DNA of 64,000 nt from Chelydra serpentina (Eukaryota > Chordata > Testudines > Chelydridae). Made by a program: the position numbers and the translations under genes. The notes beneath the pieces were generated by a model that was given only the letters and a program-made list of their open reading frames with translations, searched no databases and was not told the origin of the DNA. The stretch lies in the NCBI GenBank assembly GCA_037349315.1, contig JBAIAC010000042.1, positions 3,224,001-3,288,000 of the forward strand. The letters are read 5' to 3'. Shown here piece by piece: positions 3,257-62,136 of the stretch (positions are counted from its first letter, which is position 1; each line of letters starts with the position of its first letter).

Positions 3257-3283
3257 GACCCTGTTCCCTGCCCAGAGGGAGCC

Positions 3284-16900: not shown

Positions 16901-17116
16901 TTCCGGGCTCGCAGCTCCCCTGTGACCCCCCTGCCCCTGAGCCGGGTCCCCAGCAGGATCCGGGTTTGTCTGGACTGTGGCCGGGGGCAGGTGACGTTTA
17001 TCGATGCTGGTGACGAGGCCCCGATCTTCACTTTCCCGCCGGGCTCCGTCCCTGGGGAGAGAATCCGACCCTGGCTCCGGTTGGGGTGGGGATCCCGGCT
17101 CCGACTGTGTCCCTGA
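13961..17116 (+). CDS. Second TRIM 3' cassette (exons 5', 6', 7' with PRY-SPRY), no RING
   Basis: Exons 13961-14076 (116 bp), 15693-15752 (60 bp) and 16599-17116 (PRY-SPRY to TGA) keep all splice sites, phases and open frame. No RING/B-box, 96-bp, 231-bp or 23-bp exon lies between 11734 and 13961, so this is not a complete gene by itself. Exon 5' enters in the same phase as exon 5, so exon 4 at 7770-7792 could splice to it and give the upstream TRIM a different SPRY domain. Differences from the first SPRY cluster after the WGD motif and around the AVERWWWGQF segment, places corresponding to SPRY variable loops. The alternatives are a 5'-truncated duplicate still under weak constraint, or simply too young to have decayed. 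Candidate poly(A) signal at about 17771. Confidence 0.6.
14305..14625 (-). mobile_element. CR1 LINE 3' end fragment (duplicated copy)
   Basis: Same CR1 tail as 8868-9225, at the equivalent position in the duplicated TRIM block, with a short internal deletion. Confidence 0.7.
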
Positions 17117-26899: not shown

Positions 26900-27410
26900 G
26901 CCTTTGCCCACCCCCCAGGGTGGCCCAATAGCAGTGGTTAGAGCTGGGCAGGTTCCAGGGCCAGGTATCATCACTAGGAGGAAACAGGATGGACTCAGGG
27001 TGTCGGGTTCACTCCCTGCTCCAGGAGAATGGTCTCACAGGGACCTCAATCCCCCTGCTTGGACCCTGCTGGATACAGGAGCAGCCGTGAGCTTTTCCCA
27101 AGCTCTGGGAGGGGAGTAGGGGCTAGTGGTTAGAGCAGGAGGGGGTTGGGAGCCAGGACTCCTGAGTTCTCTTCCCAGCTCTGGGAGTGGAGTGGGGGCT
27201 AGTGGTTAGAGCAGGAGGAGGCTGGGAGTCAGGACTCCTGGGTTCTCTCCCAGCTCTGGGAGTGGAGTGGGGGCTAGTGGTTAGAGCAGGAGGAGGCTGG
27301 GAGTCAGGACTCCTGGGTTCTCTCCCAGCTCTGGGAGGGGAGTGGGGGCTAGTGGTTAGAGCAGGAGGGGGCTGGGAGCCAGGACCCTTGGCTGTCTGAA
27401 CCCACTGCTC
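26900..27410 (+). repeat. Tandem tRNA-like units, about 75 bp each
   Basis: CTAGTGGTTAGAGCAGG recurs at 27123, 27199, 27274 and 27349, a 75-76 bp period. Each unit has an A-box-like TAGTGGTTAGAGC and a B-box-like GGGTTCTCTCCC. Diverged copies precede from about 26930. Probably tRNA-derived SINE monomers in tandem. Confidence 0.65.
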
Positions 27411-35606: not shown

Positions 35607-35806
35607 GAAAGTTTAATGAGGATAAAGGCGTCGGCCGTTCCCAGGCTGGGGGAGAGGATGGAAATTGGGGAGATTTCAGGGCTTTCCCCTGGAGCTCACC
35701 TGTAAGCAGATGACATGTCTCGGGGTTACTCTCTGTTTGTCACCATCTAGTGGGGTTGCCAAGCCTTCAGCATTGTGCTGGGGTCTCCAGAAATTAAAGC
35801 TTAATC

Positions 35807-38175
35807 TAGGGGTCTCAAACACGCGGCTCGCGGGGTTATTTTCTGTGGCCCCTGCCCACCCTCCAGCGTTTACGTACAGCGGCTCCGACCCAACGCACAC
35901 TGGGGGCAGGGCAGACTCCTGCCTGGCCGCCCTGCCCTTGCGCCGCTCCGGCAAGCTCCTGGAACCTGGGGGGAGGAGGGGCACAGGGGTCTGTGTCACT
36001 GTTGTGTCCAGGCACCGCCCCCAGAAACTCCCATTGGCCGGGAACGGGGAACCGCGGCCAATGGGAGCTGCTGGGGGCGGTGCCTGGATGCAACAGTGAC
36101 ACAGACCCCTGTGCCCCTCCCCCCCCAGGTTCCGGCCTCTTGGGCAGGCAGGCAGGGAACCTGCCGCCAGTGCACGCTGGGCCAGAGCCCGCACCCCGCA
36201 CCCCTCCTGCACCCTGACCTGAGCTCCCTGCCACACCCCACACCCCTCCTGCACCCCGACCCCCTGCCCTGATCCCCCTGCCACAACCCGCACCCCTCCT
36301 GCACCCCGACCCCCTGCCCTGATCCCCCTGCCACAACCCGCACCCCTCCTGCACCCCGACCCCCTGCCCTGAGCCCCCTGCCGCACCCCGCACCACTCCT
36401 GCACCCCGACCCCCTGCCCTGATCCCCCTGCCACAACCTGCACCCCTCCTGCACCCCGACCCCCTGCCCTGATCCCCCTGCCGCACCCCGCACCCCTCCT
36501 GCACCCCGACCCCCTGCCCTGATCCCCCTGCCGCAACCCGCACCCCTCCTGCACCCCGACCCCCTGCCCTGATCCCCCTGCCGCAACCCGCACCCCTCCT
36601 GCACCCCGACTCCTTGCCCTGATCCCCCTGCCGCACCCCGCACCACTCCTGCACCCCGACCCCCTGCCCTGATCCCCCTGCCGCAACCCGCACCCGTCCT
36701 GCACCCGACCCCCCTGCCCTGATCCCCCTGCCACAACCCGCACCACTCCTGCACCCCGACCCCCTGCCCTGATCCCCCTGCCGCACCCTGCACCACTCCT
36801 GCACCCCGACCTGAGCTCCCTGCCACACCCCACACCCCTCCTGCACCCCGACCTGAGCTCCCTGCCACACCCCACACCCCTCCTGCACCCCGACCCCCTG
36901 CCCTGATCCCCCTGCCGCAACCCGCACCCCTCCTGCACCCCGACTCCTTGCCCTGATCCCCCTGCCGCAACCCGCACCCCTCCTGCACCCGACCCCCCTG
37001 CCCTGATCCCCCTGCCACAACCCGCACCACTCCTGCACCCCGACCCCCTGCCCTGATCCCCCTGCCGCAACCCGCACCCGTCCTGCACCCGACCCCCCTG
37101 CCCTGATCCCTCTGCCACAACCCACACCACTCCTGCACCCCGACCCCCTGCCCTGATCCCCCTGCTGCAACCCGCACCCCTCCTGCACCCCGACTCCTTG
37201 CCCTGATCCCCCTGTCGCACCCCGCACCACTCCTGCACCCTGACCCCCTGCCCTGATCCCCCTGCCACAACCCGCACCCCTCCTGCACCCTGACCTGAGC
37301 TCCCTGCCACACCCCACACCCCTCCTGCACCCCGACCCCCTGCCCTGAGCCCCCTGCCGCAACCCGCACCCCTCCTGCACCCCGACTCCTTGCCCTGATC
37401 CCCCTGCCGCACCCTGCACCACTCCTGCACCCCGACCTGAGCTCCCTGCCACACCCCACACCCCTCCTGCACCCCGACCTGAGCTCCTTGCCACACCCCA
37501 CACCCCTCCTGCACCCCGACCCCTTGCCCTGAGCCCCATGCCGCAACCCACACCCCTCCTGCACCCCGACCCCTTGCCCTGAGCCCCCTGCCGCACCCCA
37601 CACCCCTCCTGCACCCCGACCCCCTGCCTTGATCCCCCTGCCGCAACCCGCACCCCTCCTGCACCCCGACCCCCTGCCTTGATCCCCCTGCCGCAACCCA
37701 CACCCCTCCTGCACCCCGACCCCTTGCCCTGAGCCCCCTGCTGCAACCCGCACCCCTCCTGCACCCTGACCTGAGCTCCCTGCCACACCCCACACCCCTC
37801 CTGCAGCCTGACCCCCTGCCCTGAGCCCCCTGCCGCAACCCGCACCCCTCCTTCACCCGACCCCCCTGCCCTGAGCCCCCTGCCACACCCCGCACCCTGA
37901 CCCCCTGCCGCTCCCCTCACCCCTCCTGCACCCCACACCCCAACTCCCTGCCCTGAGCCCCCACCACACCCCACACCCCATCCTGCATCCCCTGGGGGCA
38001 GGGAGGGGGCAGAGTTGGGGTGGGGATTTGGGGGAAGGGGTGGGGCCTTATGAAAGGGGTGGAGTGGGGGTGTGGCCAAGGGCGGAGTGGGCGGGTAGGT
38101 GTCAGTAATGCGGCCCTCGGGCCAATGTACTAATCCTCATGTGGCCCTCGTGGTCATTTGAGTTTGAGACCCCTG
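35807..38175. mobile_element. hAT-like non-autonomous element with perfect 8-bp target duplication
   Basis: Ends TAGGGGTCTCAAAC and GTTTGAGACCCCTG are inverted repeats. Both sides are flanked by GCTTAATC (35799-35806 and 38176-38183). The 2369-bp interior has a CCAAT palindrome (36028-36067) and the minisatellite at 36185-37985. No transposase frame is present, so movement would have needed a source in trans. Confidence 0.85.
36185..37985. repeat. 50-bp minisatellite, about 35 copies
   Basis: A C-rich unit (GCACCCCGACCCCCTGCCCT, then GATCCCCCTGCCGCAACCC and CACCCCTCCT) repeats with a 50-bp period, for example at 36251, 36301, 36351 and 36401, with shorter variant units carrying CTGAGCTCCCTGCCACACC. 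It lies wholly inside the hAT-like element. Long open frames on the minus strand reflect the absence of A/T-rich stops, not genes. Confidence 0.92.
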
Positions 38176-39895: not shown

Positions 39896-40097
39896 CCCCT
39901 GACCATCCCTAATGTTCCCCAGCTGAAATGGGCATCTCTTGTTTCGTTCTCAGGACCTGCCAGAGCAGGGCAGGAGAGAAGCTGAGCGGAGGTCCCTTGG
40001 GAGGACACCCCAGAAGGACCGAACTGAATACACGCGACCTGCATCTGCTGCGCCGTGAGAACCGGCTGGAAGCGGCAATCCCAGAGGGACGCGACGG

Positions 40098-43000
40098 ATG
40101 AGCTGCGAGCCTGTTTCAGCCCCGCTCTGCGGAGCCAGGATGGCCGAGCACAGCGAGAGAGCAGAGCCGACCCTCGCCTCAGGGGAGGGGAAGTGTGAGA
40201 TGCGCTTGTGTGACACCGATGGGGAGCCCCAGTGCCACGTCGCTGAGCCCATGGGGGACGTGTGCCTGGCCAGGTTATGCGCCCACCCCCAGCCGCTGAG
40301 CATGGAGACCCTGCAGGGAGCGCGGGACAGACTGGAGCAATGCGGGGAGCTGGGCAGCTGCCTGGACCTCGCCCTGGAGAGGTTCGGCCGGGAGCCCCGG
40401 TGTGTGCAGGAGAACACCAGGCTGCGGATCCAGTGTGGCGGGGAGGAGCTGGAGTTTGTCTCTGGCCAGGGGCAGTGTGAGATCTCGGTGCTCCTCGCCG
40501 ATGGGGAACCCCAGTATCACATCACAGAGCTGGGAGGAGACAGGCCGGTGACTTGGTCACATGCCAGCCCAGAGCCGCTGAGCGTCGCAGACCTAGTGAG
40601 GGTGCGGGACAGACTGGGGTGCTGGGGGGTGCTGGGCGAGGAGCTGAGCAGCTTCTTGGGGGAGGCCATTTCCCAGTTCAGCCGGGAGCCCCCGTGCATG
40701 CAGGAGAACGCCCGGATGGGGATCTACTGGAACAGGGGGAGCCTGGAGTTCCTCTCAGGGGAGGGGCAGTACATGTTCTCTGTTTCCGATCAGGAAGGAA
40801 GTCCCCGTTATTATTTTCATGTTGAGGCTCTCCCAGTGCACTTGCATGTGGCCCGGTTACGTTCCCGCAAGGATCCACTCAGTGCTGAAGGCCTGTTCAA
40901 ATTTCACACTCAGCTGGGTTCTGACACTTCTGCGCTGAGGGCCTCCTTGTACACAGCCTGGCGGGGGTTCAGCCGGGAGCCCCGGTGTGTGCAGGAGAAC
41001 GCCAGGCTGCGGATCCAGTGTGGTGGAGAGGAGCTGGAGTTAGTGTCTGGCCAGGGGCAGTGTGAGATCTCCGTGCGCCTCGCCAATGGGGAACCCCAGT
41101 ATCACATCAAAGAGCTGGGAGGAGACAGGCCGGTGACTTGGTCACACTCCAGCCCAGAGCCGCTGAGCGTCGCAGACCTAGTGAGGGTGCGGGACAGACT
41201 GGGGCGCTGGGGGGCGCTGGGTGAGGAGCTGAGCGGCTGCCTTGGGGAGGCCATTTCCCAGTTCAGCCAGGAGCCCCGGTGTGTGCAGGAGAACGCCAGG
41301 CTGCGGCTACAGTGTGGCGGGGAGGAGCTGGAGTTTGTCTCCGGCCAGGGGCAGTGTGAGATCTCGGTGCTCCTCGCTGATGGGGAACCCCAGTATCACA
41401 TCACAGAGCTGGGAGGGGACAGGCCAGTGACTTGGTCACACTCCAGCCCAGAGCCGCTGAGCGTCGCAGACCTAGCGAGGGTGCGGGACAGACTGGGGCG
41501 CTGGGGGGCGCTGGGTGAGGAGCTGAGCGGCTGCCTTGGGGAGGCCATTTCCCAGTTCAGCCAGGAGCCCCTGTGCATGCAGGAGAATGCCCGGATGGGG
41601 ATCTACTGGGCCAGGGGGAGCCTGGAGTTCCTCTCGGGGGAGGGGCAGTACATTTTCTCTGTTTCCGATCAGGAAGGAAGTCCCCGTTATCATTTCCATG
41701 TTGAGGCTCTCCCAGGGCACTTGTATGTGGCCCGGTTACGTTCCCGCAAGGACCCACTCAGTGCTGACAGTCTGCTGAGATTTCACACTGAGCTGGGTTT
41801 CTGTCGGGGAGACACTGCTGCGCTAAGGGCCTCCTTGTACACAGCCTGGCGGGGGTTCAGCCGGGAGCCCGGGTGTGTGCAGGAGAACGCCAGGCTGCTG
41901 ATCTCCTGGGAAGGGGCCAAGGAAGCGCTAGAGTTCGTCTCTGGGCAGGGGCAGTGTGAGATCAGGGTGTCCTGCAGCGCCGGGGGGGCCCAGTACCACA
42001 TTACAGAGAAAACCGGGGAGGGGGTTTTGGCTTGGACAAACTCACACCCAGAACCGCTGAGCATCCAAAATCTGGAGAGGGTGAGAGACAGACTGGGGTG
42101 CTGGGGGCTGCTGGGCGAGGAGCTGAGCGGCTGCTTTGGGGAGGCCATTTCCCAGTTCAGCCGGGAGCCCCCGTGTGTGCAGGAGAACGCCAGGATGAGG
42201 TTGTGTTGGGACAGGGGGAGCCTGGAGTTCCTCTCAGGGGAGGGGCAGTGTGAGATCTCTGTAGCCTATGAGGAAGGAAGTCCCCGTTATTATTTTCATG
42301 TTGAGGCTCTCCCAGTGCACTTGTATGTGGCCCGGTTACGTTTCCGCCAGGACCCACTCAGTGCTGACAGTCTGCTGAGATTTCACACGGAGCTGGGTTT
42401 CTGTCGGGGAGACACTGCTGCGCTGAGGGCCCGCTTGCACACAGCCTGGGAGGGGTTCAGCCGGGAGCCCCAGTGTGTGCAGGAGAACGCCAGGCTGCTG
42501 ATCCAGTGGGGCAGGAGGCAGCTCAGGTTCACCTCAGGGAGGGGGGAATGTGAGATCTGTGTGGGCCGGCAACCCCAGTACCATGTTGGGAAGATCCCAG
42601 TGCATGTCTACGTGGCTCAGCTACGCGCCCGGCGAGAATCACTGAGCGCTGACACCCTACAGAGAGTGTTGAGTGAACTGGGGTCCTGTTATGGAGACAC
42701 TGATGCTCTGACCACCTGTTTTGACCGAGCCTGGTTGGGGTTCATCCAGGAGCCCCGGTGTGTGCAGGAGAATGCCAGGCTGCGGATCCAGTGGGGTGAG
42801 GAGGAACCGGAGTTTGTCTCCGGCCAGGGGCAGTGTGAGATCTCGGTGCTCCTCGCCGATGGGGAACCCCAGTATCTCATCACAGAGCTGGGAGGAGACA
42901 GGCCGGTGACTTGGTCACACGCCAGCCCAGAGCCGCTGAGCGTCGCCGACCTAGTGAGGGTGTGGGAGAGACTGGGGCGTTGGCGTGGGCTGGGTGAAGA

Positions 43001-46000
43001 GCTGAGCGGCTGCTTTGGGGAGGCCATTTCCCAGTTCAGCCAGGAGCCCCGGTGTGTGCAGGAGAACACCAGGATGGGGATCCGGTGGGACGGAGGGACC
43101 CTGGAGTTCCTGTCAGGGGAGGGGGAGTGTAAGATTAATGTGCACTGTAGGGACGGGAGACCCCAGTACGACGTTGGGGAGCTTCCCATGCACATGTACC
43201 TGGCTCGGTTATGCACCCGCCCAGAACCCCTGAGTGCCGACAGCCTACAGAGAGTGTTGAGAAAATTGGGGTCCTGTCAGGAAGACAATGGTTTATTAAG
43301 AGCCTGTATTTCCCACGCCTTGAACCAATTCGTTCAAGAGCCCCGGTGTGTGCAGGAGAACGCCAGGCTGCGGGTCCAGTGTGGTGGGGAGGAGCTGGAG
43401 TTTGTCTCCGGCCAGGGGCAGTGTGAGATCTCGGTGCTCCTTGCCGATGGGGAACCCCAGTATCACATCACAGAGCTGGGAGGGGACAGGCCGGTGACTT
43501 GGTCACACTCCAGCCCAGAGCCATTGAGCGTCGCAGACCTAGTGAGGGTGCGGGACAGACTGGGACCCTGGGGGGTGCTGGGCGAGGAGCTGAGCGGCTG
43601 CTTTGGGGAGGCCATTTCCCAGTTCAGCCGGGAGCCCCCGTGTGTGCAGGAGAACGCCAGGATGAGGTTGTGTTGGGACAGGGGGAGCCTGGAGTTCCTC
43701 TCAGGGGAGGGGCAGTGTGACATCTCCGTATCCGATCAGGAAGGAAATCCCAATTATCATTTTCATGTTGAGACCCTCCCAGGGCACTTGTATGTGGCCC
43801 GGTTACGTTCCCATAAGAACCCACTCACTGCTGACAGCCTGTTCAAATGTCACACTGAGCTGGGTTTCTGTCAGGGAGACACTGCTGCGCTGAGGGCCTC
43901 CTTGTACACAGCCTGGGAGGGGTTCAGCCGGGAGCCGTGGTGTGTGCAGGAGAACGCCAGGCTGCTGATCTCCTGGGACAGGGGGGAGCTGGAGTTGGTC
44001 TCCGGGCAGGGGCAGTGTGAGATCAGCGTATCCTGCAGCACCGGGGAGCCCCAGTACCACATTACAGAGAAAACCTGGGACGTATTTGTGGCTTGGATGA
44101 ACTCACATCCAGAACTGCTCAGCATCAAAAACTTGAAGAGCATTCGAAACAGACTGGGGGGCTGGGGAGCGCTGAGTGAAGGGTTGAGCGGCTGCTTTGG
44201 GGAGGCCATTTCCCAGTTCAGCCGGGAGCCCCCGTGTGTGCAGGAAAATGCCAGGATGAGGTTGTGTTGGGCCAGGGGGAGCCTGGAGTTCCTCTCGGGG
44301 GAGGGGCAGTACATTTTCTCTGTTTCCGATCAGGAAGGAAGTCCCCGTTATCATTTCCATGTTGAGGCTCTCCCAGGGCACTTGTATGTGGCCCGGTTAC
44401 GTTCCCGCAAGGACCCACTCAGTGCTGACAGTCTGCTGAGATTTCACACTGAGCTGGGTTTCTGTCGGGGAGACACTGCTGCGCTAAGGGCCTCCTTGTA
44501 CACAGCCTGGGAGGGGTTCAGCCGGGAGCCCGGGTGTGTGCAGGAGAACGCCAGGCTGCTGATCTCCTGGGAGGGGGGGGAGCTGGAGTTCATCTCCGGG
44601 CAGGGGCAGTGTGAGATCAGCGTCTTCTGCAGCACGGGGGAGCCCCAGTACCACATTACAGAGCAAATCTGGGACACGTTTTTGGCTTGGACTCACTCAC
44701 ATCCGGAACCACTGAGCATCCAAAACCTGGAGAGGGTGCGAGATAGACTAGGGCACTGGGGGCTGCTGGGCGAGGAGCTGAGCGGCTGCTTTGGAGAGGC
44801 CATTTCCCAGTTCAGCCGGGAGCCCCCGTGTGTGCAGGAGAATGCCAGGATGAGGTTGTGTTGGGACAGGGGGAGCCTGGAGTTCCTCTCGGGGGAGGGG
44901 CAGTACATATTCTCTATATCCTATCAGGAAGGAAGTCCCCGTTATCATTTCCATGTTGAGGCTCTCCCAGTGCACTTGTATGTGGCCCGGTTACGTTCCC
45001 GCAAGGACCCACTCAGTGCGCACAGTCTGCTGAGATTTCACACGGAGCTGGGTTTCTGTCGGGGAGACACTGCTGCGCTGAGGGCCCGCTTGCACACAGC
45101 CTGGGAGGGGTTCAGCCGGGAGCCCCAGTGTGTGCAGGAGAACGCCAGGCTGCTGATCCAGTGGGGCAGGAGGCAGCTCAGGTTCACCTCAGGGAGGGGG
45201 GAATGTGAGATCTCCGTGCGCTGTGTGGGTCGGCAACCCCAGTACCATGTTCGGAAGATCCCAGTGCATGTCTACGTGGCTCAGCTACGCACCCGGCGAG
45301 AATCACTGAGCGCTGACACCCTACAGAGAGTGTTGAGTGAACTGGGGTCCTGTTATGGAGACACTGATGCTCTGAACACCTGTTTTGACCGAGCCTGGTT
45401 GGGGTTCAGCCGGGAGCCCCGGTGTGTGCAGGAGAACGCCAGGCTGCGGATCCAGTGTGGCGGGGAGGAGCTGGAGTTAGTGTCTGGCCAGGGGCAGTGT
45501 GAGATCTCGGTGCTCCTTGCCGATGGGGAACCCCAGTATCACATCACAGAGCTGGGAGGGGACAGGCCGGTGACTTGGTCACACGCCAGCCCAGAGCCGC
45601 TGAGCGTCGCAGACCTAGTGAGGGTGCAGGACAGACTGGGGCGCTGGGGGGCGCTGGGTGAGGAGCTGAGCGGCTGCTTTGGGGAGGCCATTTCCCAGTT
45701 CAGCCAGGAGCCCCGGTGTGTGCAGGAGAACGCCAGGCTGCGGATCCAGTGGGGCGGGGGGGAGCTGGAGTTTGTCTCCGGCCAGGGGCAGTGTGAGATC
45801 TCAGTGCTCCTCGCCGATGGGGAACCCCAGTATCTCATCACAGAGCTGGGAGGAGACAGGCCGGTGACTTGGTCACACTCCAGCCCAGAGCCGCTGAGCG
45901 TCGCAGACCTAGCGAGGGTGCGGGACAGACTGGGGCGCTGGGGGGCGCTGGGCCAGGACCTGAGCGGCTACTTTGGGGAGGTGATTTCCCAGTTCAGCCG

Positions 46001-46808
46001 GGAGCCCCATTGTGTGCAGGAGAACACCAGGATGAGGGTCTGGTGGGATGGAGGGACCCTGGAGTTCCTGTCGGGGGAGGGGCAGTGTGAGATCTCCATG
46101 CACTGTAGGGAGGGGAGACCCCAGTATGAGGTCGGGGAGCTCCCTGTGGACATGCACCTGGCTCGGTTACACGCCCGTCCACAACCACTGAGCACCAACA
46201 GCCTACAGAGAGTGTTGAGAAAATTGGGGTCCTGTCAGGAAGACACCGGTATCCTAAGAGCCTGTATTTCCCATGCCTTGGACCAATTCGTTCGGGAGCC
46301 CCGGTGTGTGCAGGAGAACGCCAGGCTGCGGATACAGTGGGGCGGGGAGGAGCTGGAGTTTGTCTCTGGCCAGGGGCAGTGTGAGATCTCGGTGCTCCTC
46401 GCCAATGGGGAACCCCAGTATCACATCACAGAGCTGGGAGGGGACAGGCTGGTGACTTGGTCACACAGCAGCCCAGAGCCGCTGAGCATCGCAGACCTAG
46501 CGAGGGTGTGGGCCAGACTGGGGCCCTGGGGGGTGCTGGGTGAGGGGCTGAGCAACTGCTTTGGGGAGGCCATTTCCCAGTTCAGCCGGGAGCCCCGGTG
46601 TGTGCAGGAGAACGCGCGGATGTGGATCTACTGGGACAGGAATAGATTGGAGTTCCTGTCAGGAGAGGGGGAGTGTGAGATCGCTGTGCGATATAGGAAC
46701 GGGAGAGCCCAGTACAGGGTTGGGGAGCTCCCAGTGCACATAAAGCTGGCTCAGTTACACACCCTATCAGAGCCAGAGCACCCACCCCCTGTGAGGCCAC
46801 ATGATTGA
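40098..46808 (+). CDS. Giant tandem-repeat protein, 22 units of about 98 residues, unknown family
   Basis: One uninterrupted exon-like frame of 2236 codons. An in-frame TGA at 40056 bounds it upstream. The ATG at 40140 (residue 15) has the better Kozak context (A at -3, G at +4) and is my preferred start. A pyrimidine tract plus CAG ending at 39953 looks like a splice acceptor, so a 5' non-coding exon is likely. After a half-unit, units begin at Cys codons 40401, 40695, 40986, 41280, 41574, 41874, 42174, 42474, 42759, 43053, 43347, 43641, 43941, 44235, 44535, 44829, 45129, 45423, 45717, 46011, 46305 and 46599. Each opens C[VM]QEN[AT]R[LM], has a strand-rich half (LEFVSGQGQCEISV, PQYHI) and a helical half (PLSVADLVRVRDRLG, LGEAISQFSREP). 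Unit lengths are 285, 291, 294 or 300 bp, always multiples of three. There is no signal peptide or membrane segment, so it is probably intracellular. The last dozen codons and stop come from a decayed junction and an LTR. I recognise no known family. Confidence 0.8.
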   Translation: MSCEPVSAPLCGARMAEHSERAEPTLASGEGKCEMRLCDTDGEPQCHVAEPMGDVCLARLCAHPQPLSMETLQGARDRLEQCGELGSCLDLALERFGREPRCVQENTRLRIQCGGEELEFVSGQGQCEISVLLADGEPQYHITELGGDRPVTWSHASPEPLSVADLVRVRDRLGCWGVLGEELSSFLGEAISQFSREPPCMQENARMGIYWNRGSLEFLSGEGQYMFSVSDQEGSPRYYFHVEALPVHLHVARLRSRKDPLSAEGLFKFHTQLGSDTSALRASLYTAWRGFSREPRCVQENARLRIQCGGEELELVSGQGQCEISVRLANGEPQYHIKELGGDRPVTWSHSSPEPLSVADLVRVRDRLGRWGALGEELSGCLGEAISQFSQEPRCVQENARLRLQCGGEELEFVSGQGQCEISVLLADGEPQYHITELGGDRPVTWSHSSPEPLSVADLARVRDRLGRWGALGEELSGCLGEAISQFSQEPLCMQENARMGIYWARGSLEFLSGEGQYIFSVSDQEGSPRYHFHVEALPGHLYVARLRSRKDPLSADSLLRFHTELGFCRGDTAALRASLYTAWRGFSREPGCVQENARLLISWEGAKEALEFVSGQGQCEIRVSCSAGGAQYHITEKTGEGVLAWTNSHPEPLSIQNLERVRDRLGCWGLLGEELSGCFGEAISQFSREPPCVQENARMRLCWDRGSLEFLSGEGQCEISVAYEEGSPRYYFHVEALPVHLYVARLRFRQDPLSADSLLRFHTELGFCRGDTAALRARLHTAWEGFSREPQCVQENARLLIQWGRRQLRFTSGRGECEICVGRQPQYHVGKIPVHVYVAQLRARRESLSADTLQRVLSELGSCYGDTDALTTCFDRAWLGFIQEPRCVQENARLRIQWGEEEPEFVSGQGQCEISVLLADGEPQYLITELGGDRPVTWSHASPEPLSVADLVRVWERLGRWRGLGEELSGCFGEAISQFSQEPRCVQENTRMGIRWDGGTLEFLSGEGECKINVHCRDGRPQYDVGELPMHMYLARLCTRPEPLSADSLQRVLRKLGSCQEDNGLLRACISHALNQFVQEPRCVQENARLRVQCGGEELEFVSGQGQCEISVLLADGEPQYHITELGGDRPVTWSHSSPEPLSVADLVRVRDRLGPWGVLGEELSGCFGEAISQFSREPPCVQENARMRLCWDRGSLEFLSGEGQCDISVSDQEGNPNYHFHVETLPGHLYVARLRSHKNPLTADSLFKCHTELGFCQGDTAALRASLYTAWEGFSREPWCVQENARLLISWDRGELELVSGQGQCEISVSCSTGEPQYHITEKTWDVFVAWMNSHPELLSIKNLKSIRNRLGGWGALSEGLSGCFGEAISQFSREPPCVQENARMRLCWARGSLEFLSGEGQYIFSVSDQEGSPRYHFHVEALPGHLYVARLRSRKDPLSADSLLRFHTELGFCRGDTAALRASLYTAWEGFSREPGCVQENARLLISWEGGELEFISGQGQCEISVFCSTGEPQYHITEQIWDTFLAWTHSHPEPLSIQNLERVRDRLGHWGLLGEELSGCFGEAISQFSREPPCVQENARMRLCWDRGSLEFLSGEGQYIFSISYQEGSPRYHFHVEALPVHLYVARLRSRKDPLSAHSLLRFHTELGFCRGDTAALRARLHTAWEGFSREPQCVQENARLLIQWGRRQLRFTSGRGECEISVRCVGRQPQYHVRKIPVHVYVAQLRTRRESLSADTLQRVLSELGSCYGDTDALNTCFDRAWLGFSREPRCVQENARLRIQCGGEELELVSGQGQCEISVLLADGEPQYHITELGGDRPVTWSHASPEPLSVADLVRVQDRLGRWGALGEELSGCFGEAISQFSQEPRCVQENARLRIQWGGGELEFVSGQGQCEISVLLADGEPQYLITELGGDRPVTWSHSSPEPLSVADLARVRDRLGRWGALGQDLSGYFGEVISQFSREPHCVQENTRMRVWWDGGTLEFLSGEGQCEISMHCREGRPQYEVGELPVDMHLARLHARPQPLSTNSLQRVLRKLGSCQEDTGILRACISHALDQFVREPRCVQENARLRIQWGGEELEFVSGQGQCEISVLLANGEPQYHITELGGDRLVTWSHSSPEPLSIADLARVWARLGPWGVLGEGLSNCFGEAISQFSREPRCVQENARMWIYWDRNRLEFLSGEGECEIAVRYRNGRAQYRVGELPVHIKLAQLHTLSEPEHPPPVRPHD
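40140..40142 (+). promoter_or_regulatory. Preferred start codon of the giant repeat gene
   Basis: In-frame ATG in context GCCAGGATGG (purine at -3, G at +4), better than the first ATG at 40098 (C at -3). It yields a 2222-residue protein starting MAEHSERAEP. Confidence 0.55.
41574..46598 (+). repeat. Higher-order repeat of about 2.66 kb (nine units) within the giant ORF
   Basis: Units 5-9 (from 41574) correspond to units 14-18 (from 44235) at offsets of 2655-2664 bp. Units 10-11 correspond to 20-21 at an offset of 2958 bp, exactly one 294-bp unit more; the extra unit is number 19 (45717-46010), an L-type unit like its neighbours. Offsets come from matched unit starts and unit-type order. Confidence 0.8.
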
Positions 46809-47872
46809 AATAGGACTGTATGTCTCTGTACAATTGGAACAAAACTTGTAAGAAGTGCCTCCTGTAAGGAATCAATGGAGAAGTTACTATCTATCAAGTA
46901 CGATTGTCCTGTTCGTCTACGTGTATCATCTTTGTATCCGAAGTGATAAATATTGACTCTATACTGACATCCTACCTATGTGTTGTATTCCTGAGAAACA
47001 CCCGCAAGGCAGTTTACATCCAGTCTAGCTAGCCACTTTGAACGGAGTGTTCAAGTTGATGGCCCGTTAAAGAAAACATTTAACTCTCTCAACGGGCCAC
47101 AGAAGAAGCTTGTCACGGTCCCATGAGCCTTCCTGTGGACGCTTTAGCCAGAATATGGATAATGGCTGCTTCTATGACTCATCGAAGGGCCTGTGACTTG
47201 CTCATGTGACCCTGGACTCCATCAAGCATCCTCTCCACATGGGAGAAGGTCTAAAAGACCCAGCCGGGAAGCATCTCTATTTTGCCTCTTTCCTGCTCTG
47301 ATCTCTGACCTGACACTAAAAGGGGCATATTGAGTATGGACTGAGGCCCTTCCAGTCTTTAGGAAATTACCAGAGACTGTACAAGCCAGCCGTCTGTAAC
47401 ATCACTGCTACAAACCTGATGCAAGAACTTTGAAGTGATGATATGTACATGATTTCTATGAGCATTTTAACTCTCTCCTCTTTCTCTTTGCTTATAAATA
47501 AACCTTTAGATATTAGATACTAAAAGATTGGCAGCAGTCTGATTATTGTGTAAGATCTGAGTGATATATTGACCCGGCTGTATGGTTGATCTCTCAGGAT
47601 ATAGAGAACCCTACATGTGATGAAATTGGTTTTCAGTAATCACTCGCCATAGAATCCAGTGTCTGGGTGTTGAATTCAGGCCTGGAATGCCTCAGGAGGC
47701 TGCATTTCTGACTTCTTGTTCACCAGCATGGTGAGACAGACGTTTACTGCTGTTTCTGGCGCGGTGTATCTATGATAGGATATCCACCAGTTTAGAGTGA
47801 GCCTGCCCCATTGCTCAGTGGTTTGTCCTCAATCTGGTATTCTCAGCTGTGACCCACGGAGACATGGTGACA
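46790..47872 (+). mobile_element. Probable solo LTR inserted in the giant repeat gene
   Basis: Non-homologous block splitting unit 22. It starts TGTGAGGCC and ends GGTGACA. Flanks CCCCC (46785-46789) and CCCTC (47873-47877) may be a decayed 5-bp duplication. AATAAA sits at 47497-47502. It contributes the last codons and the TGA of the upstream ORF and probably its polyadenylation site. No internal retroelement genes. Confidence 0.6.
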
Positions 47873-48724
47873 CCCTCCCTATGGAGAGTGATGAGAAAAC
47901 TGGGGTCCTGTCGGGGAGACATCGCTACATCCTACATTCCCCAAGCCTTGAACCAATTCATTTTAGAACCCCAGTGTGCACAGGAGAATGCCAGGCTATT
48001 GATCCAGTGTGGCGGGGAGGAGCTGGAGTTGATCTCCGGCCAGGGGCAGTGTGAGATCTCGGTGCTCCTCGCCGATGGGGAACCCCAGTATCGCATCACA
48101 GAGCTGGGAGGGGACAGGCCGGTGACTTGGTCACACGCCAGCCCAGAGCCGCTGAGTATCACAGACCTAGCGAGGGTGTGGGATAGACTGGGGCACTGGG
48201 CGAGGGGTGGAGCAGCTGCCTTGGGGAGGCCATTTCCCAGTTCAGCCGGGAGCCCCTATGTGTGCAGGAGAATGCCAGGATGCGGATCCAGTGGAGCAGG
48301 AGGAAGCTGGAGTTTCTGTCAGGGGAGTGGGAGTGTGAGATCTCTGTGCAATATAGGGATGGGAGACCCCAGTACAATATTGGGGGAGCTCCCCGTGCAC
48401 ATGTACCTGGCTGGGTTACATGCCCGTCCAGAACCACTGAGCACTGACACCCTACAGAGAGTGAGGGACAAACTGGGGTCTTGTGAGGGAGACAGAGATG
48501 ATCTTAGACACTGTTTTCACCACGCTTGGGAGGGGTTCTGCCGGGAGCCCCCGTCTGTGCAGGAGAACGTCAAGCTGCTGATCCGGTGGGGTGGGGAGAA
48601 GCTGGAATTTGTCTCTGGGCGGGGGGAGAATTTAATCACCGTGTGTCAAGGTGAGGAGGGAAGAATCCAATACATGGTTCAGGTGTCACGCTGGTGGCCA
48701 CGGATTGCTAGACCCCACACATAA
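47873..48724 (+). pseudogene. Severed C-terminal part of the giant repeat gene, frameshifted
   Basis: Begins with the second half of an M-type unit (RVMRKLGSC ... ALNQF) that complements unit 22, which breaks off in its first half. Then come an L-type unit (start at about 47982), an M-type unit (about 48257) and a last partial unit ending RIARPHT and TGA at 48722. The reading frame is lost near 48200 and again near 48381, where a G has been gained. This is the ancestral C-terminus, cut off by the LTR and decaying since. A separate small gene is unlikely. Confidence 0.75.
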
Positions 48725-53857: not shown

Positions 53858-56800
53858 TCAGGGACACAGGCTGAGCACGGATCCTGGCCCCACCCAGAGC
53901 CAGGGTCGGATTCTCTCCCCAGGGACGGAGCCCGGCGGGAAAGTGAAGATCGGGGCCTCGTCACCAGCATCGATAAATGTCACCTGCCCCCGGTCACAGT
54001 CCAGACAAACCCAGATCCTTCTGGGGACCCGGCTCAGGGGCAGGGGGGTCTCAGGGGAGGTCAGAGCCCGGAACTGACCCCACCACTGCTCCACAGCCCA
54101 GATCCCCCCTTCAGGGCTCAGGCTGATCACCCCCTTCCTCCTCACAGACTCTCTGGCCACCCCCACAGCCCAGCGTTCCCCATCCCCCACCTCCACCCCC
54201 CAGCAATGTCTCCCCGAGGTGAATCCCTCACAGCCCAGCACACACAGCGCAGTGTCAAATCTCTCAGGGTCGTGGGGCAGATCCTGGCGTGTGTCTCCCC
54301 ATCTCACACTTTTCCGATCCACAGACAGGACGAGGTCAGGATGAGACGAGTATGGATCCAGAGTCACATTCACTGTGGTGGGGGGTAAAGAATCAGAGCG
54401 TTAGGGGCAGAGCTCAACCCTGGGGTTGGCTGGGGCCATTTTTCACACTCCCCAGAAGCCCTGCTCCAGTTGGGACAGGCCTGGACCCCAGGGAGCTGCC
54501 TCTGTCCTTGCTCCTGAGGCTGAACAGAGATGTCACTGCAGTTCCTCAGCCTGTTTCTCATTTGTCTAAAAAAGCTTCAGTTCCCAGCTCCCCTTCCTGG
54601 AGCTGCTCCATTCCCAATGGCAGAGACACAGCCAGGAAGGGGTAAGAAGCTTTTATTGAGGAGGGGATGGGAACCAGCTTAAAAACTCAGCAAGAAACTC
54701 CATCCCCTAAGGCAGCCTCCACTCCCAGGCCAGGGAACAGAGAGGAAAGTGCAGCATTGGGGAAGAACTGCTTATGACTAGAGAGTAGGAGGTGGCATTG
54801 GGTTGAGGAGCCCCAACCCAGAGAGAAGGGAGGAGCTGCCACCATCACAGGGAGAGCATCCCCCCAACCCCGGAAGCAGGGAGCAGCTCCAATGGGAGAG
54901 CCCAGCCCTGCCCAAAGGAAAGGCAGGATGTTGGAGAAGCGCGATGGGGAGTCTCTGGGTAAAGCAGAGGGATGTGTCAAGCCTCAGGGCAGAGAGCTCT
55001 GTTCGGGTGCTGCTCAGGGAGAGTGTTTCTGTTCAGCAGCCTGGGCATGAACTCAGCCCTAAGGTTGGGGTCAGGATTGTTTGTGTGATGTCGGCTTGGA
55101 ATCCCCCCAGGTGTTCCGGAACCTTGGTAGAAGTTGCGGGGAGGGGCCCAGGGGGGCCCATCGCCTGCGGCCCCGCCCACTCTGTGGCCCTGCCCCATTA
55201 CTCCTCTTCCCACCGAGGCCCTGACTCCACGCCATGCTGGGAGCCTTGGCCACTGTGGGGAGCCCCGGACCCTATACCTGCCCTGGGCTGGTGTCTGGGG
55301 GGCCTGGGAGCAGCCCCCAGCCCATGTTCCCACTCCCCAGAGCCCACCACCCCAGGACAGGTGGAGGGTGCAGGGTTCCCCAGTACGTCTGAGCTCCTTG
55401 AGTGACAGCCAAGCTCTGGCTTCTGGCCTGACTAGGGGGCAGGGCCTCAGGGGAAGAGGAGCAGGGATGGGGTCTGAGAGGGGCCAGCGCCGGAAAGAAT
55501 CATAGAATCATAGAATATCAGGGTTGGAAGGGACCTTAGGAGGTCATCTAGTCCAACCCCCTGCTCAACGCAGGACCAATCCCTAATTTTTGCCCCAGAT
55601 CCCCAAATGGCCCCCTCAAGGATTGAACTCACAACCCTGGGTTTAGCAGGCCAATGCTCAAACCACTGAGCTATCCCTCCCCCTGCAGTCTCACCCTGTC
55701 TGTGTGCTCCGAGTGGTTCCTCTCTTTTTGTCTCCAGTTCAGATGGCAGCGTGTCTGCAGGGGGAAAGGAGAAGAGGAGTGAGATTTCAGGCTTTCATAT
55801 TTATAAGAGCGTCCCCACTCTGAACTCCTAGAACTGTGTTTCCATCATGACAGAGACAGACAGAGGGACACACTCAGGCATTTCGTAGACAAAAATCTAT
55901 CGATTTCATTTCTCATTCAGGCCTCGGGAAGAGGAGCAGGGGTGGTGCCACTAAGAGGAGCTGGCACTGGGAAGAGGCTGGCGCTGCGGGCAGGGGCTGC
56001 GCTTCATGGGGAGGAGCTGATCAGCAGCCCGGCCACAAAGCCCAGCAGCTGCCTGCGAGGCTCCAGGCTTGCAACGTGGCCCCCTGCCACCAAACTATGC
56101 CCATGTTAAAAACTGGGCGGGCCTGGGTGGCCTTACTACTTTTATACTGGGGGGGTGGCGGCGGCATGGCCCCCTGGGCTACCCTGTTCCAGCGGGTCTG
56201 GACCGCCTTACTGTTTAATGTGCTATTTTTAGGGCTGCGTGGGTCATAGCCACGGTCGGTTTGGTTGGTAACTTTCGCTACAATCCCATGAAGATGTTTT
56301 CACTGGAATTTTCTCATCATTTAGAGACAATCTTCTCCTAAAATCTCACCCTGTCCGAACGGTCCTAGGGATTTCCCTCTTTTTCTCTCCAGTTCAGATG
56401 GCAGAGTGTCTGGAAGAGGAAAGGAAAAGAGAGGTGAGATTTCAGGCTTTCATATTATAACAGCATCACCGCTCTGAACTCCTAGACCTGTGTTTTAATT
56501 ATGACAGAGAAACAGAAAGAGACACACCCAGGGATTTAATATAAAAAGGTCTGAAACGTTCTATTTCCTCTCTCATTCAGGCATCTCCCAGCAATGGAAC
56601 CAACATCCTTGCAGCCTCACAACCATCCCAGGACAAACACTCTGTAAGAGAGATTTACTTTTCCCCTCCTCATCCCCTCCCACCCTTCAGACTCCAGTAG
56701 GTTTGTCTCATTCACTTATTGCCTTTTCTCGTAACCTAGACCCAGAGCCTGCAAAGACTTTGGCATAAAAGTAACTTTACCCACTTTGGTCCCTTTGACA

Positions 56801-59800
56801 CTAAGAGGATGCAAAATCCTGGCTCTAATTCTGAGCTGTTGGGTTTGTTTACTCAGCATCTCTAAAGAGAGCAGCACGCAGGGCCGTCCCTAGCTATTCT
56901 GGGGCCCTACGCAGCCCCCCGTGGGGGGGTGGGGGTGGGGAGTGAGGCCTCCACGGGAGAGGGCTGGCTTGGGGGGCAGGGAGGAACCTGCGGAGGCTTA
57001 AGGGAAGGGGTTGGGTGGGGGCGTGGTTTGGGCGGAGCAGGGGTGGGAAGAGGCGGGGCTGAGGTAGAGCAGGGGCAGGGGCCATGGGGAAAGGGTGGGG
57101 CAGGGGCTGGAGCAGCATGCAGCTGTGCAGGGCTTTTTTGAGGCACCAAATTTCCTGGTGCCCTACGCAGCTGCATACTTTGCGTCTGGGTAGAGACGGC
57201 CCTGGCAGCATGAAGGGGCCTCGTCCTCCATAGGCAGAAATAGGAATAATAATAGAATCATAGGACTGGAGGGAATCTCGAGAGGTCATCAAGTCCAGTC
57301 CTCTGCACTCATGGCAGGACCAAGCACCATCTCTAGACCATAGGACGAAACAATAAAATCATTTTATCAAGGTGGAAATTGAGGCAGGGGGAAGGTTGGC
57401 TCCATGGATCAGATTCACCCCTGTACCGGCAAAAAGAGAGAGGGGAGGGGCCATTTGTGACTCTGCTGTTCAGTGGGCTGGGTCCAGGTGTAACAATTGA
57501 CCTTTAGTTTTGAGTGCCGACCTTTACGCACCTGTGGTCTGGTTCTCAGAGTGGCTGGTCTCCTGCAGCTCCCACTGACTCCACCTGCAGATGTGGAGGC
57601 TACAGGGCTTGGGAGCACCTGCCCTGCAGCTCTCTAGTTGGGAGAGGGAAACTCGGGTGCCCCAAATTAGGCCATTTTCCTGAATTTGGGACTTAATGTT
57701 GAATGTTGTGACCTTTGGCAAGTCATGAATTAATGTGAGATCCTGATGCCTGGGCCCCTGCTACATCTGCTCTATTTGTCGGCTTTCCACTAATTATTAT
57801 ATTAAGTATTAAGAACTGGTACAAGGGTCATTTCTTAAACATAAGTTTGGACAGACCGAGACTGTGCGTTTGTACTGACTGACTTGGCTTTGGCCTGGTG
57901 AGCCGTTTACTTGACAAGAGGGAAATGTTGCCTTGAGTGACCTTTTTATTAAGTGATGTGTTCATAAGTTGCTCTGTGGGACAAAGAGATGTTTTGACCA
58001 CACAATGTGCTTCAAGAAAACAGATACCCAAAATGTACTGCCAAGGAGCAGTTAGCAAAGTCCGAAAACCCCCATGTGGAGAAAAGGGTCAAAGTTATCT
58101 GTGCACATCAGTGTGTACTGAGTGGTGATGAATGCACTGGAAAAAAGAATAACATGAAAATAGCTTGGACAGTAAAAGCCCTGCCAATTAAAAAGTTCAT
58201 GCATGTACAGTGCATGATTTATGCAAGACACTTACTATTCAGAACACACAAAGATGATTGGAAATAAATATATAAATAATATAAATAAATATATAATCTG
58301 GATGTGTATAATACGTCAGACATCGTATGGAGTAGTCAGAGCATCAAAGGAGAAATGCACCATGAGCCACCTTTGCCCCAGAAGAAGGTAACTGGGCAGT
58401 ATTTCTTTTAGTATGTCCATCATTTCTTACTTGAGTAGTAACTGTAATGGCAAGACATGCTTTTGGAACAAATAAGTGGTTGAATGAATCAACCTGAGTC
58501 TCTTGGACCCCAAGTGCGTGGCATTCTCACCCAACAATTAAATAGAAGCATAATATAAACCATGGGAACTGAAACAACCACTCAGCCGACCTCAAAAGAG
58601 ATGGGAAGATTTCATCTTGAAAAGATATTGCCACACATGGAGAAGGAAGCCCAGGAAGAATGGTCAATCATAGTTATCAAGGTGATAAACTAATTATGAA
58701 CCAATTGACCAGCGCCATTGTCTTCCCAGTTAACCCAATTTCCCCTCCTACATCCCTTCTAGGTACCTTTGAACTGCCTCAGAGTCTCCAATAGCGCAAT
58801 AGTTTTCTGGAAGTAACCACTGACTCGCTCTTCCACTTCAGGAGAAATCTCCTCTGGCTGCTGGAACTTCCCCTTCTCACACCTGGAGAGAAACAATTTC
58901 ACGTGATTGTATTTCACTGTGTGACTCATGATACGTTCTGGCTAGTGAGTCGCTGCTCTAATGGGACTGGAGTTAGAATTCCTCGACTTCTCCCTCAGAG
59001 CAGGTGCAACACAGCCCATGGCCATGAAATGTTCCCCTCAAAGGACCCATTAATATTCTTCAATTCTGGCCTGGAGGGACCAGCTCTGGCACAAAAGAGG
59101 AATTGAGTCTCCATGGCCAATTCACTCCTTGGCCTCCATGCTCTGAGGAACAGGAGGTTCCCAGGTGAAGTGCATTTGATACAGTACCACATGAGGAATT
59201 ATTGGTTAAATTGGAAAAGATGGGGATCAATATGAAAATTGAGAGGTGGATAAGGAACTGGTTAAAGGGGAGACTACAGCGGGTCATACTGAAAGGTGTA
59301 CTGTCAGGTTGGAGGGAGGTTACTGGTGGAGTTCCTCAAGGTTCAGTTTTTGGACCAATTTTATTTAATCTTTTTATTACTGACCTCGGAACCAAAAGTG
59401 GGAGTGTGCTCATAAAGTTTGCGGATGACACAAAGTTGGGAGGTATTGCCAATTCAGAAAAGGATCGGGATATCCTACAGGAAGATCTGGATGACCTTGT
59501 AAACTGGAGTAATAGTAATAGGATGAAATTTAATAGTGAGAAGTGTAAGGTTATGCATTTAGGGATTAATAACAAGAATTTTAGTTATAAGCTGGGGACG
59601 CATCAGTTGGAAGTAATGGAAGAGGAGAAGGACCTCGGAGTCCTGGTTGATCACAGGATGACTATGAGTCGCCAATGTGATGTGGCTGTGAAAAAAGCTA
59701 ATGCGGTCTTGGGATGCATTAGGCGAGGTATTTCTAGTAGAGATAAGGAGGTGTTAGTACCGTTATACAAGGCATTGGTGAGACCTCATTTGGAATACTG

Positions 59801-62136
59801 TGGGCAGTTCTGGTCTCCCATGTTTAAGAAGGATGAATTCAAACTGGAACAGGTACAAAGAAGGGCCACTAGGATGATCCGAGGAATGGAAAACCTGTCG
59901 TATGAAAGGAGACTCAAGGAGCTTGGTTTGTTTACCTTAACTAAAAGAAGGCTGAGGGGAGATATGATTGCTCTCTTTAAATATATCAGAGGGATAAATA
60001 CCAAGGAGGGAGAGGAATTATTTCAGCTCAGTACCAATGTGGACACAAGAACAAATGGATATAAACTGGTCATCAGGAAGTTTAGATTTGAAATTAGATG
60101 AAGGTTTCTAACCATCAGAGGAGTGAAGTTCTGGAACAGCCTTCCAAGGGAAGCAGTGGGGGCAAAAGACCTATCTGGCTTCAAGATTAAGCTAGATACG
60201 TTTATGGAGGGGATGGTTTGATGGGATAACATGATCTTAGTCAAAGGTCAATTAATTGCCATCAGTGGTAAATAGGACCAATGGTCAATGATGGGATGTT
60301 AGATGTTACTACAGAGAACTTTTTCCTGGGTGTCTGGCTGGTGAGTCTTGCCCACATGCTCGGGGTTCAGCTGATTGCCATATTTGGGGTCGGGAAGGAA
60401 TTTTCCTCCAGGGTAGATTAGCAGAGGCCCTGGAGGTTTTTTGCCTTCCTCTGCAGCATGGGGCACGGGTCACTTACTGGAGGATTCTCTGCATCTTGAA
60501 GTCTTTAAACCATGATTTGAGGACTTCAATAGCTGAGACATAGGTGAGAGGATTATTCCAGGAGTGGGTGGGTGAGATTCTGTGGCCTGCATTGTGCAGG
60601 AGGTCAGACTAGATGATCATAATGGTCCCTTCTGACCTTAAAGTCTATGAGTCTATGAGAAATCTGTCCTCTAGGAACTAGACTGAGACACCAACTCCCC
60701 GCTCCCCAGCTCATTCCACACAGGTCTCCAAACAGTCCTCAGGTGGGAAAGACTTTTGACCGTTGCTGCCCTAGGCTGAATGGTGACCAGTGCCCCAGCA
60801 GTGACAGGCCCATATTCCACCCCCACAATCCTGAGGCAGCCAGTCCCCCAGGGAGGTGACATCTCTAGGAAATACTTGAGGTCAGTCTTTCCCACTGAAT
60901 GGAAAATTTCATAGTCTTCTCTGCAAGCGTGAGAACCTCAGGATGAAGTTGTTCAGAGAGATTCGTATCCAACATATGACCTTCCCCACACTTTTGCTGT
61001 AGAGCGCTGGGGAGAGGCGGTGGTAACATCATCTCCAAGCTCTTTCCCAGCATTGTGAAGTGTGAGGGGGAGTGAGAGAGAGCCACGTACCTGCTCAAGG
61101 TGCTTCTGACGTCCTAGAGGAGAGAACAAAAAAAGAATTTCAGTCCCATCTGACACACACAGGGGATCACAGGGAAGGGATTTAGGAAGTATGGGGGGAA
61201 AGAGGCCCTGCTTTGGCCCCAAGGCCATGGATTCCCTGAGCTAATGGGGCTCCTCCATCTCTCATAACTCTGTGTCTGTGACTCTGCAAAGAACAATTGT
61301 AATTCACATATCAGTAATGCACACACCAAGTTACAGTGAGATCTCTGACTGCTGGACCACAGTGCTTATGATTCAGGAGACCTCCCTTCCCCATGTGGGG
61401 ATCTGGGATGTTTCTCACTCAGTCTCACCTGCAGGAATTCACTTGCTGGCTTCTGACACTTCCCCTCCAGCTCCCTGATCAGCTCACTGAGACGGGAAAT
61501 CTCCTCGGAGAATTTACTGACACTTTCATTCTGGATCCTCACAATCTTCTCGTCCAGCTTGTCCAGCTGGGCCAGCAGGAGTCGCTCTTGTTGCTCCAGG
61601 AACTGCTGCAGTTGCTGAAATTCAGACACAATCTTCTGCCTCTCGGTTTGTGTCTGTATCTGTATAAAAATAAGAAAAGGGCTGGTCAGGGACATGGATG
61701 GAGCCTGGGGTCCTTTCATGGAGAGCTGAGTGTGTAGGATTTTCTTTGAAAATTCTAAGATTATGTTAGTGCAAGAAATGACCAGACACAGTGGACAGCA
61801 CTTCACGGGGAGATTCAGTTCACTTAGGGAGGATTTCTGTGAAAGCCACAAGGGCTAGACATTAACTCATTAACTGAAATGGAAGCTTAGGGCTTGTCTA
61901 CACACGAATCTAACCCAGCAATCCGTGATCAGGGAGGAAGTAGGAAGACACACAAGCCCACATTCACCAAGGCCATAGATGAATCTGCCACCAAACAGAC
62001 CCTCACTGCCAATCCCTGCTGGTTAATAACAAGCACCTACCAGATACTCCCAGATTTTCCCCTCTCCAGTCGCTTTCAATCCCAGCAGCTTTTCTCTCTC
62101 TTCTCTCAAAGTCTTCAAATGGGCCTGAAGTTTTTC
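53858..62136 (-). CDS. Second TRIM gene (coiled coil, PRY-SPRY), exons 2-7; exon 1 beyond window
   Basis: Minus-strand exons in order: 62136-62041 (96 bp), 61659-61429 (231), 61113-61091 (23), 58882-58767 (116), 56409-56350 and/or 55754-55695 (60 each), 54372-53858 (PRY-SPRY to TGA). All splice sites and phases are intact and sizes equal those of the plus-strand gene. Exons 2-3 encode a long coiled coil. The SPRY has LDPY, a WGVEV variant of WEVEV, and LDCDRG. Exon 1 (RING, B-box) is absent up to 64000; intron 1 alignment with the first gene predicts it near 64.8 kb, outside the window. Two exon 6 copies are each 60 bp, phase 1 to phase 1, so either or both can be spliced in. A CR1 lies antisense in the intron between exons 4 and 5. 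The product should be a RING-type ubiquitin ligase if exon 1 exists. Confidence 0.82.
55499..55685 (-). mobile_element. tRNA-derived turtle-type SINE beside TRIM exon 6
   Basis: Same SINE as 38804-38990, with A and B boxes readable on the minus strand. Its edge lies about 10 bp downstream (gene sense) of the exon 6 copy at 55695-55754, just beyond the GTGAGA donor. Confidence 0.88.
55695..55754 (-). CDS. TRIM alternative exon 6, copy a
   Basis: 60-bp exon between CTGCAG acceptor and GTGAGA donor, phase 1 on both sides. It encodes DTLPSELETKREEPLGAHRQ. It belongs to the minus-strand TRIM gene and lies closer to the SPRY exon. Confidence 0.7.
56350..56409 (-). CDS. TRIM alternative exon 6, copy b
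   Basis: 60-bp exon between TTCCAG acceptor and GTGAGA donor, phase 1 on both sides. It encodes DTLPSELERKRGKSLGPFGQ. It is closer than copy a to the plus-strand gene's exon 6, so copy a is probably the derived duplicate. Confidence 0.7.
56879..57204. mobile_element. hAT-like MITE in TRIM intron 5
   Basis: Ends CAGGGCCGTCCCTA and TAGAGACGGCCCTG. Flanks GCAGCACG (56871-56878) and GCAGCATG (57205-57212) match 7 of 8. Absent from the paralogous intron of the plus-strand gene. Confidence 0.85.
57245..57350 (-). mobile_element. CR1 3' tail fragment
   Basis: The reverse complement matches the terminal 100 bp of the CR1 at 23005-24868 (GGTCTAGATGGTGCTTGGTC region). Confidence 0.7.
59173..60658 (+). 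mobile_element. CR1 LINE, 5'-truncated, antisense in TRIM intron 4
   Basis: A 299-residue frame (59202-60101) carries RT motifs GVPQGSVFGPILFNLFI, FADDTKLGGI (intact catalytic FADD), GVLVDHRMTMS, then RRATRMIRGME and [14 protein letters not shown]. The tail ends CCTTAAAGTCTATGAGTCTATGA. The flanking TRIM intron matches 8161-8250 of the plus-strand gene with no CR1, so the insertion edges are visible. The N-terminal RT fingers and ORF1 are missing, so it is immobile. Confidence 0.9.

Follow-up and report, generated by a model that had tools for sequence, protein, structure and literature searches.

An intronless giant of ordered tandem repeats in Chelydra serpentina and its relatives in turtles and alligator

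Results

A stop-free frame in Chelydra serpentina encodes a giant repeat protein

One stop-free frame at 40059–46808 (+) of a 64,000-nucleotide stretch of Chelydra serpentina DNA (the window) encodes a giant protein of tandem repeats, which we interpret, with a probability of about 0.45, as a functional, soluble, ordered multivalent scaffold or adaptor derived from a membrane protein. Under this proposal, a functional gene whose coding sequence occupies a single exon would yield a soluble protein of ~250 kDa made of 23 tandem alpha-alpha-beta4 domains. Its ancestor would most likely have been a short membrane protein carrying such domains between two transmembrane helices, and the loss of these anchors, together with repeated internal duplication, would have preceded the divergence of the sea turtle and pond turtle families. 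From then on, the order and number of the C-terminal domains would have been kept in the giant and its likely counterparts, and a 1-kb insertion with a small frameshift would have severed the old C-terminal end. Each domain type (A, a, B, C, D) may serve as a binding module, held in fixed order within a cytosolic scaffold or adaptor whose partners may include membrane-anchored relatives or the products of neighbouring TRIM genes. Position and architecture are what suggest a scaffold function, to which we give slightly less than even odds, and an immune role, which we regard as doubtful.

The frame ends in a stop codon at 46806–46808 and contains no internal stop over the 2236 codons that follow ATG 40098 (ORF 40098–46808, +), in agreement with an earlier note, prepared from the sequence alone, that had described a 6.7-kb intronless frame. 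Translation likely begins not there but at ATG 40140 (GCCAGGATGG), because MAEHSERAEP aligns with the MADxSEGAE-type starts (MADRSEGAEL and similar) of several relatives. Given an in-frame stop upstream and a good acceptor ending at 39953 (Table 1), any upstream exon would be non-coding for the giant's frame. Each of the other five frames of the same stretch holds 51–89 stops. A simple neutral simulation, in which the unit consensus drifted along the unit tree free of selection, gave a mean of 64.7 stops and a minimum of 20, and none of its 300 runs was free of stops. Furthermore, 725 of the 2236 codons lie one step from a stop, yet none is a stop, and all 21 unit spacings are whole codons, with no indel off the codon frame. 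The earlier note had argued that such length discipline is hard to keep without selection; the results support a coding frame that is intronless, real and held open far past neutral expectation, and we are confident that the gene is real and under selection.

At the level of substitutions, unit-to-unit dN/dS averages 0.52 for type A and 0.63 for type B (1.74 for the single C pair), values that some gene conversion between units would blur. pN is below pS in 199 of 210 unit pairs, which are not independent of one another, and the pooled pN/pS (A 0.55, B 0.66, all units 0.79) falls inside the spread of neutral simulations (A 0.78 ± 0.17, B 0.79 ± 0.18 and all 0.84 ± 0.07 at kappa 4; all 0.77 ± 0.06 at kappa 8).

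Table 1 Features of the window in order of position
Feature	Position	Strand	Details
Lone unit fragment, from another family copy	486–614	-	101.7 bits, E 1e-30
RING + B-box ORF, TRIM-type	3239–3754	+	Domain search
PRY-SPRY ORF, TRIM-type	11197–11730	+	Domain search
PRY-SPRY ORF, TRIM-type	16577–17113	+	Domain search
Likely 3' splice site	39930–39953	+	Pyrimidine tract ending CTCAG, 5' of the coding exon; consensus match only
Unit 0, degenerate, N-terminal	40134–40400	+	Retains the helix pair, with a shortened beta half; unit-profile score 59.8 bits
21 full units	40401–46598	+	Type order A B A A B a B C A D A B a B a B C A A D A
Last unit, truncated (69 aa)	46599–46805	+	Tail EPEHPPPVRPHD; unit DNA similarity stops at 46792
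Insertion, ~1.06 kb of unrelated DNA within a former single unit	46793–47850	+	Holds the present stop; AATAAA at 47497
Relic of the old 3' end	47851–48721	+	One half unit, then two units, then the C-terminal half unit with the ending GENLITV..RWWPRIAR
PRY-SPRY ORF, TRIM-type	53861–54400	-	Domain search

The array is composed of distinct unit types

The motif C[VM]QEN[AT]R occurs 22 times in the giant (17 CVQENAR, 3 CVQENTR and 2 CMQENAR) and recurs over 21 spacings of 95–100 codons (285–300 bp), so the earlier reading of a near-invariant opening block and of unit lengths divisible by three stands. The tally of 22 units holds for motif starts but not for the array as a whole, in which a degenerate unit precedes them, the last unit is cut and unit-like sequence lies beyond the stop; counting the degenerate first and the cut last unit, the giant has 23. 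Each of the 22 units opens with cysteine, and in 18 of them a cysteine also follows SGxG[QE], as had been described for the opening block and, usually, the GQCEISV strand; the 2222 residues contain 89 Cys in total. By hydropathy, the protein has no stretch resembling a signal peptide, whose absence had also been remarked in the earlier note, or a membrane helix (best 19-residue value 0.86).

Unit types were named by eye in the window, units of other genes were typed by the most similar window unit, and the unit profile was built from the 21 full units. Every full window unit has 0.78–0.95 identity to some neighbour within the gene and 0.73–0.89 to its nearest unit in Caretta, a relation that fits some gene conversion. 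The units are not all young, because out-of-phase rows (A vs B) are only 37–46% identical. The first 95 residues are 76–80% identical to those of the Caretta protein P0002 and of the Chrysemys proteins P0003 and P0004. Separately, the lone unit fragment on the minus strand (Table 1) ends at unit position 193, near the break point of the array after 46792.

Unit order is common to three genes

P0002 and P0003, picked for comparison as the longest relatives, have in common with the window a run of 18 full units, ABaBCADABaBaBCAADA. In all three genes the last 18 units (17 full and the cut one, with its tail) span 1744 residues; this C-terminal block is 81.5, 79.5 and 80.7% identical in the three comparisons, with six gap columns against the window and none between Caretta and Chrysemys. 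By comparison, the membrane form is 82.1% identical between emydid and cheloniid overall and 86.2% in its soluble part. Because three genes agree in the order and length of its C-terminal part, we take the array to be old rather than recently grown. The window gene, P0002 and P0003 are likely counterparts; if so, the array was built before those families split, and its C-terminal part has kept its length. This constancy is limited to the C-terminal part of the three genes, and length varies among other members: in Chrysemys, P0004 follows much of this unit order up to a different ending and P0005 and P0013 are shorter; in Pelodiscus, the twelve full units of P0007 are arranged in another order.

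An insertion separates the giant from a relic of its old 3' end

Downstream, the unit DNA profile breaks off at unit position 196 (46792) and picks up again at position 172 (47851), and the halves on either side of the intervening insertion look like one former unit. A two-base gap relative to unit 20, just 5' of the break, shifts the frame into the present tail EPEHPPPVRPHD. No second copy of the 1.06-kb insertion was found within the window at E 1e-3. Unit-like sequence in the relic extends over 47851–48684, with frame changes near 48200 and near 48385. The relic-type ending also occurs in P0004, P0008, P0010, P0012 and P0013, and a PHD or SHD tail like that of the window closes P0002, P0003, P0005, P0014 and P0017; from these protein sequences, loss of the old C-terminal end looks common to several species.

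The giant belongs to a family with short, probably anchored members

Three protein searches returned 25 relatives; twelve turtle species account for 24 of them and Alligator mississippiensis for the remaining one, a spread that holds among the ~8000 candidates scored (those sharing most words, within a length band). None of 43 pattern hits in viral contigs was confirmed as a relative, nor was any relative confirmed in prokaryote contigs. Members of at least 775 aa come from Caretta, Chrysemys (four), Platysternon (four), Malaclemys, Mauremys mutica and Pelodiscus, and shorter soluble models from Caretta (three), Macrochelys, Dermochelys, Chelonia and Mauremys reevesii. Several members of unequal length can occur in one species (Chrysemys P0003, P0004, P0005 and P0013, its four members measuring 1934, 1733, 1342 and 775 aa; Caretta P0002, P0014, P0015 and P0018). 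Not every copy need be functional, because several database relatives look cut or oddly spliced (P0006, P0011, P0018 and P0019). The four Platysternon relatives are entered as matrix-remodeling-associated protein 8, dTDP-4-dehydrorhamnose reductase, MoeA and coproporphyrinogen III oxidase, names that are unrelated to the family and plainly wrong. The long turtle proteins (Caretta P0002; Chrysemys LOC135974676, -677, -678 and -898; Pelodiscus LOC142825960), all uncharacterised, are of the giant's family, and P0002 and P0003 share its unit order and block length; the long proteins differ from it in their numbers of units, and some retain the old ending GENLITV..WWPWIAR.

Six short proteins, P0020–P0025 (Pelodiscus, Chelydra, Malaclemys, Chelonoidis, Chelonia and Alligator), each carry two strongly hydrophobic stretches (hydropathy 1.9–3.0), which are probably membrane helices; these enclose a helix pair, then one or two full units and, at the end, a beta half. 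These uncharacterised relatives (LOC128848025, LOC116821076, LOC119567630, Alligator Y1Q_0024449 and others) have the giant's domain and signature, window rows being 34–42% identical to P0022 and full units of P0020–P0026 having 0.38–0.47 identity to the nearest window unit; they differ in being 308–383 aa long (470 aa in Pelodiscus P0020), with two probable membrane helices and only one or two full units. The family signature (LS..L, F..EP, Q.N, SG.G, G.P.Y) is present in the giant and in P0020–P0026, its columns being invariant or at least 90% one residue across 28 rows (21 window rows and P0020–P0026). P0026 (Mauremys reevesii, 299 aa) is itself divergent, with two full units flanked on either side by half units, and lacks any strongly hydrophobic stretch; its N-terminus, MGSQLGK, could be N-myristoylated.

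Some long members that lack hydrophobic stretches end in GENLITV..GWWPWIARLL, which matches GENEINV..GW.xWxARN, the part of the anchored forms that immediately precedes their second hydrophobic stretch; GWWPWIAR, resembling the anchor start of the membrane forms, ends P0004, P0008 and P0012. Anchored and long genes probably sit on the same contigs in Pelodiscus and Malaclemys, because their reported longest contigs are equal (496464 and 46690620, respectively). On the simplest reading, the soluble giant would have come from an anchored ancestor; the anchored form could instead be the derived one, though it is the form of the alligator.

The domain has no convincing match to a described family in the libraries searched

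An AF2 model of the relative P0022 (mean pLDDT 83.9, 141 of 308 residues at 90 or above, pTM 0.50) has regular helix/strand repeats, in which the domain consists of two helices and a four-strand meander; window units folded alone reached a pLDDT of only 59.6. The earlier expectation of a beta-rich half and a two-helix half therefore agrees with the AF2 models, the better of which is that of P0022.

Neither Pfam nor the PDB sequences (best E 1.5) gave the window protein a convincing match to a known family or transposon frame, the kind of match that the earlier note had named as counting against its view; NCBIfam returned no family for the four relatives that served as queries, fold searches gave no convincing family, and BFVD no match with E < 0.001. 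No transposase, polymerase or gag family exceeded its cut-off in the window protein (Gag_p12, 21.5 bits; cut-off 25). Whole-protein Pfam scores pass the cut-offs for DUF6374, HTH_HVO_0163_N, Peripla_BP_7, bDLD1 and PaaX (E 6e-14 to 8e-6), but their best stretches cover 20–37 residues, of which 3, 1, 0, 0 and 0, respectively, reach E 10 alone. Of four unit-length stretches scanned, three had no family and one scored 14.8 bits for DUF6374 and 13.5 for bDLD1 (cut-off 25 for both). These hits are false, being summed weak matches inflated by repetition. Human REDD1/DDIT4 (3lq9) was considered as a possible likeness in fold only; a sequence relationship was not detected by hhalign (probability 0.12, score below shuffled controls, with a REDD side of only two sequences). 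As far as the searched libraries go, the domain family is very probably undescribed. The claim that the giant has no recognisable family thus stands for the libraries, but the giant is no isolated orphan: it belongs to a turtle and alligator family that includes small anchored members.

Discussion

Alternative explanations

Whether the giant works at all is the question raised by a decaying array, in which the frame would be open only through gene conversion homogenising young units. The close within-gene neighbour of every full unit, the broken downstream relic and the overlap of the pooled pN/pS with neutral simulations would all fit, but order and length are kept without a stop in three genes, no stop has arisen at any of the codons one step away, and A and B rows have diverged widely, and we consider this very unlikely. 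If the protein is real, it might instead serve a single tissue (e.g. epidermis, oocyte or eggshell gland) in bulk, as structural or storage-like material, its length and repetition outweighing binding. The long, repetitive and Cys-rich frame and the equal length of the C-terminal block across three genes are compatible with such a role, which nevertheless seems quite unlikely to us: the units are predicted to be globular (from the model of the relative), distinct unit types in a shared order suggest specific modules, and the protein has no signal-like stretch.

A more specific alternative is an innate immune effector or sensor under pathogen pressure, in which the array would be a recognition or decoy surface and the TRIM neighbourhood functional rather than accidental. 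TRIM-type exons lie at 3.2, 11.2, 16.6 and 53.9 kb, and Chrysemys and Caretta each have several members of differing length; this reading draws on position alone, however, the C-terminal block is identical in order and length in three genes rather than variable, and, at 80.7%, its conservation across species comes close to that of the membrane form's soluble part, all of which makes it unlikely. The helical half might also be a remote PPP1R14/CPI-17 member and the giant a multivalent PP1 regulator. Pelodiscus P0020 matches PF05361 at 31.3 bits (cut-off 22.4) and P0021–P0024 at 13.0–18.4 bits, and the domain profile, aligned to the CPI-17 chain by hhalign, reaches a score of 16.1 over 39 helical columns (the best of 40 shuffled controls, made from REDD1 rather than CPI-17, being 15.1), but at a probability of only 1.75. 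PF05361 is absent from the window protein's 10 families (E up to 10), from the four unit-length stretches, and from the alligator protein and P0026 (E up to 1); P0020 has no CPI-17 chain among its PDB matches (E up to 10), though the library includes CPI-17; and the first PF05361-matched part aligns with a strand of the model. VTVKY, the phosphorylation-site motif of CPI-17 and present in the CPI-17 chain examined, occurs in none of 27 sequences, and we hold this alternative to be extremely unlikely.

Comparison with known giants

Titin-, plakin- and nebulin-like proteins are giant tandem-domain proteins. Like them, the giant strings together many copies of a single folding unit, whose distinct types follow a conserved order; it differs in its unrelated domain, in its single coding exon and in a form found here only in turtles. 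The family is an uncurated vertebrate domain family, masked by wrong database names and by false Pfam hits inflated by repetition. The stages by which a giant soluble array may have grown out of a short membrane protein could be read from the anchored relatives of turtles and alligator, from the long block shared in order and length and from the old C-terminal end seemingly lost in several species. The full account would be that an archosaur/turtle membrane protein with an undescribed fold became, within turtles, a soluble 2000-residue array, its order kept since before sea and pond turtles parted, acting as an ordered multivalent scaffold, possibly in a TRIM-linked innate immune region, with no known mammal counterpart; taken jointly, these parts are a tentative proposal and rather unlikely to hold all at once.

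Genomic neighbourhood

The giant is flanked by a RING + B-box exon and three PRY-SPRY exons (Table 1), which confirms the TRIM neighbours reported earlier. By Pfam, the giant itself contains no RING, B-box or PRY-SPRY; these domains lie in the separate neighbouring ORFs, and TRIM/B30.2 membership was rejected. The window also contains a 50-bp minisatellite (34.7 copies, C-rich on the + strand) at 36212–37897, overlain by long minus-strand open frames (35676–38136) that are unlikely to be genes, and a 75-bp tandem repeat (3.8 copies) at 27096–27385. Reverse transcriptase fragments at 22718–23755 (+) and 59169–60098 (+) are probably of LINE origin, and a Myb/SANT-like ORF at 19205–19705 (+; 1.7e-11) and a weak DDE_Tnp_4 match at 22408–23079 (-; 17.4 bits, cut-off 24.8) are perhaps the remains of a Harbinger-type transposon.
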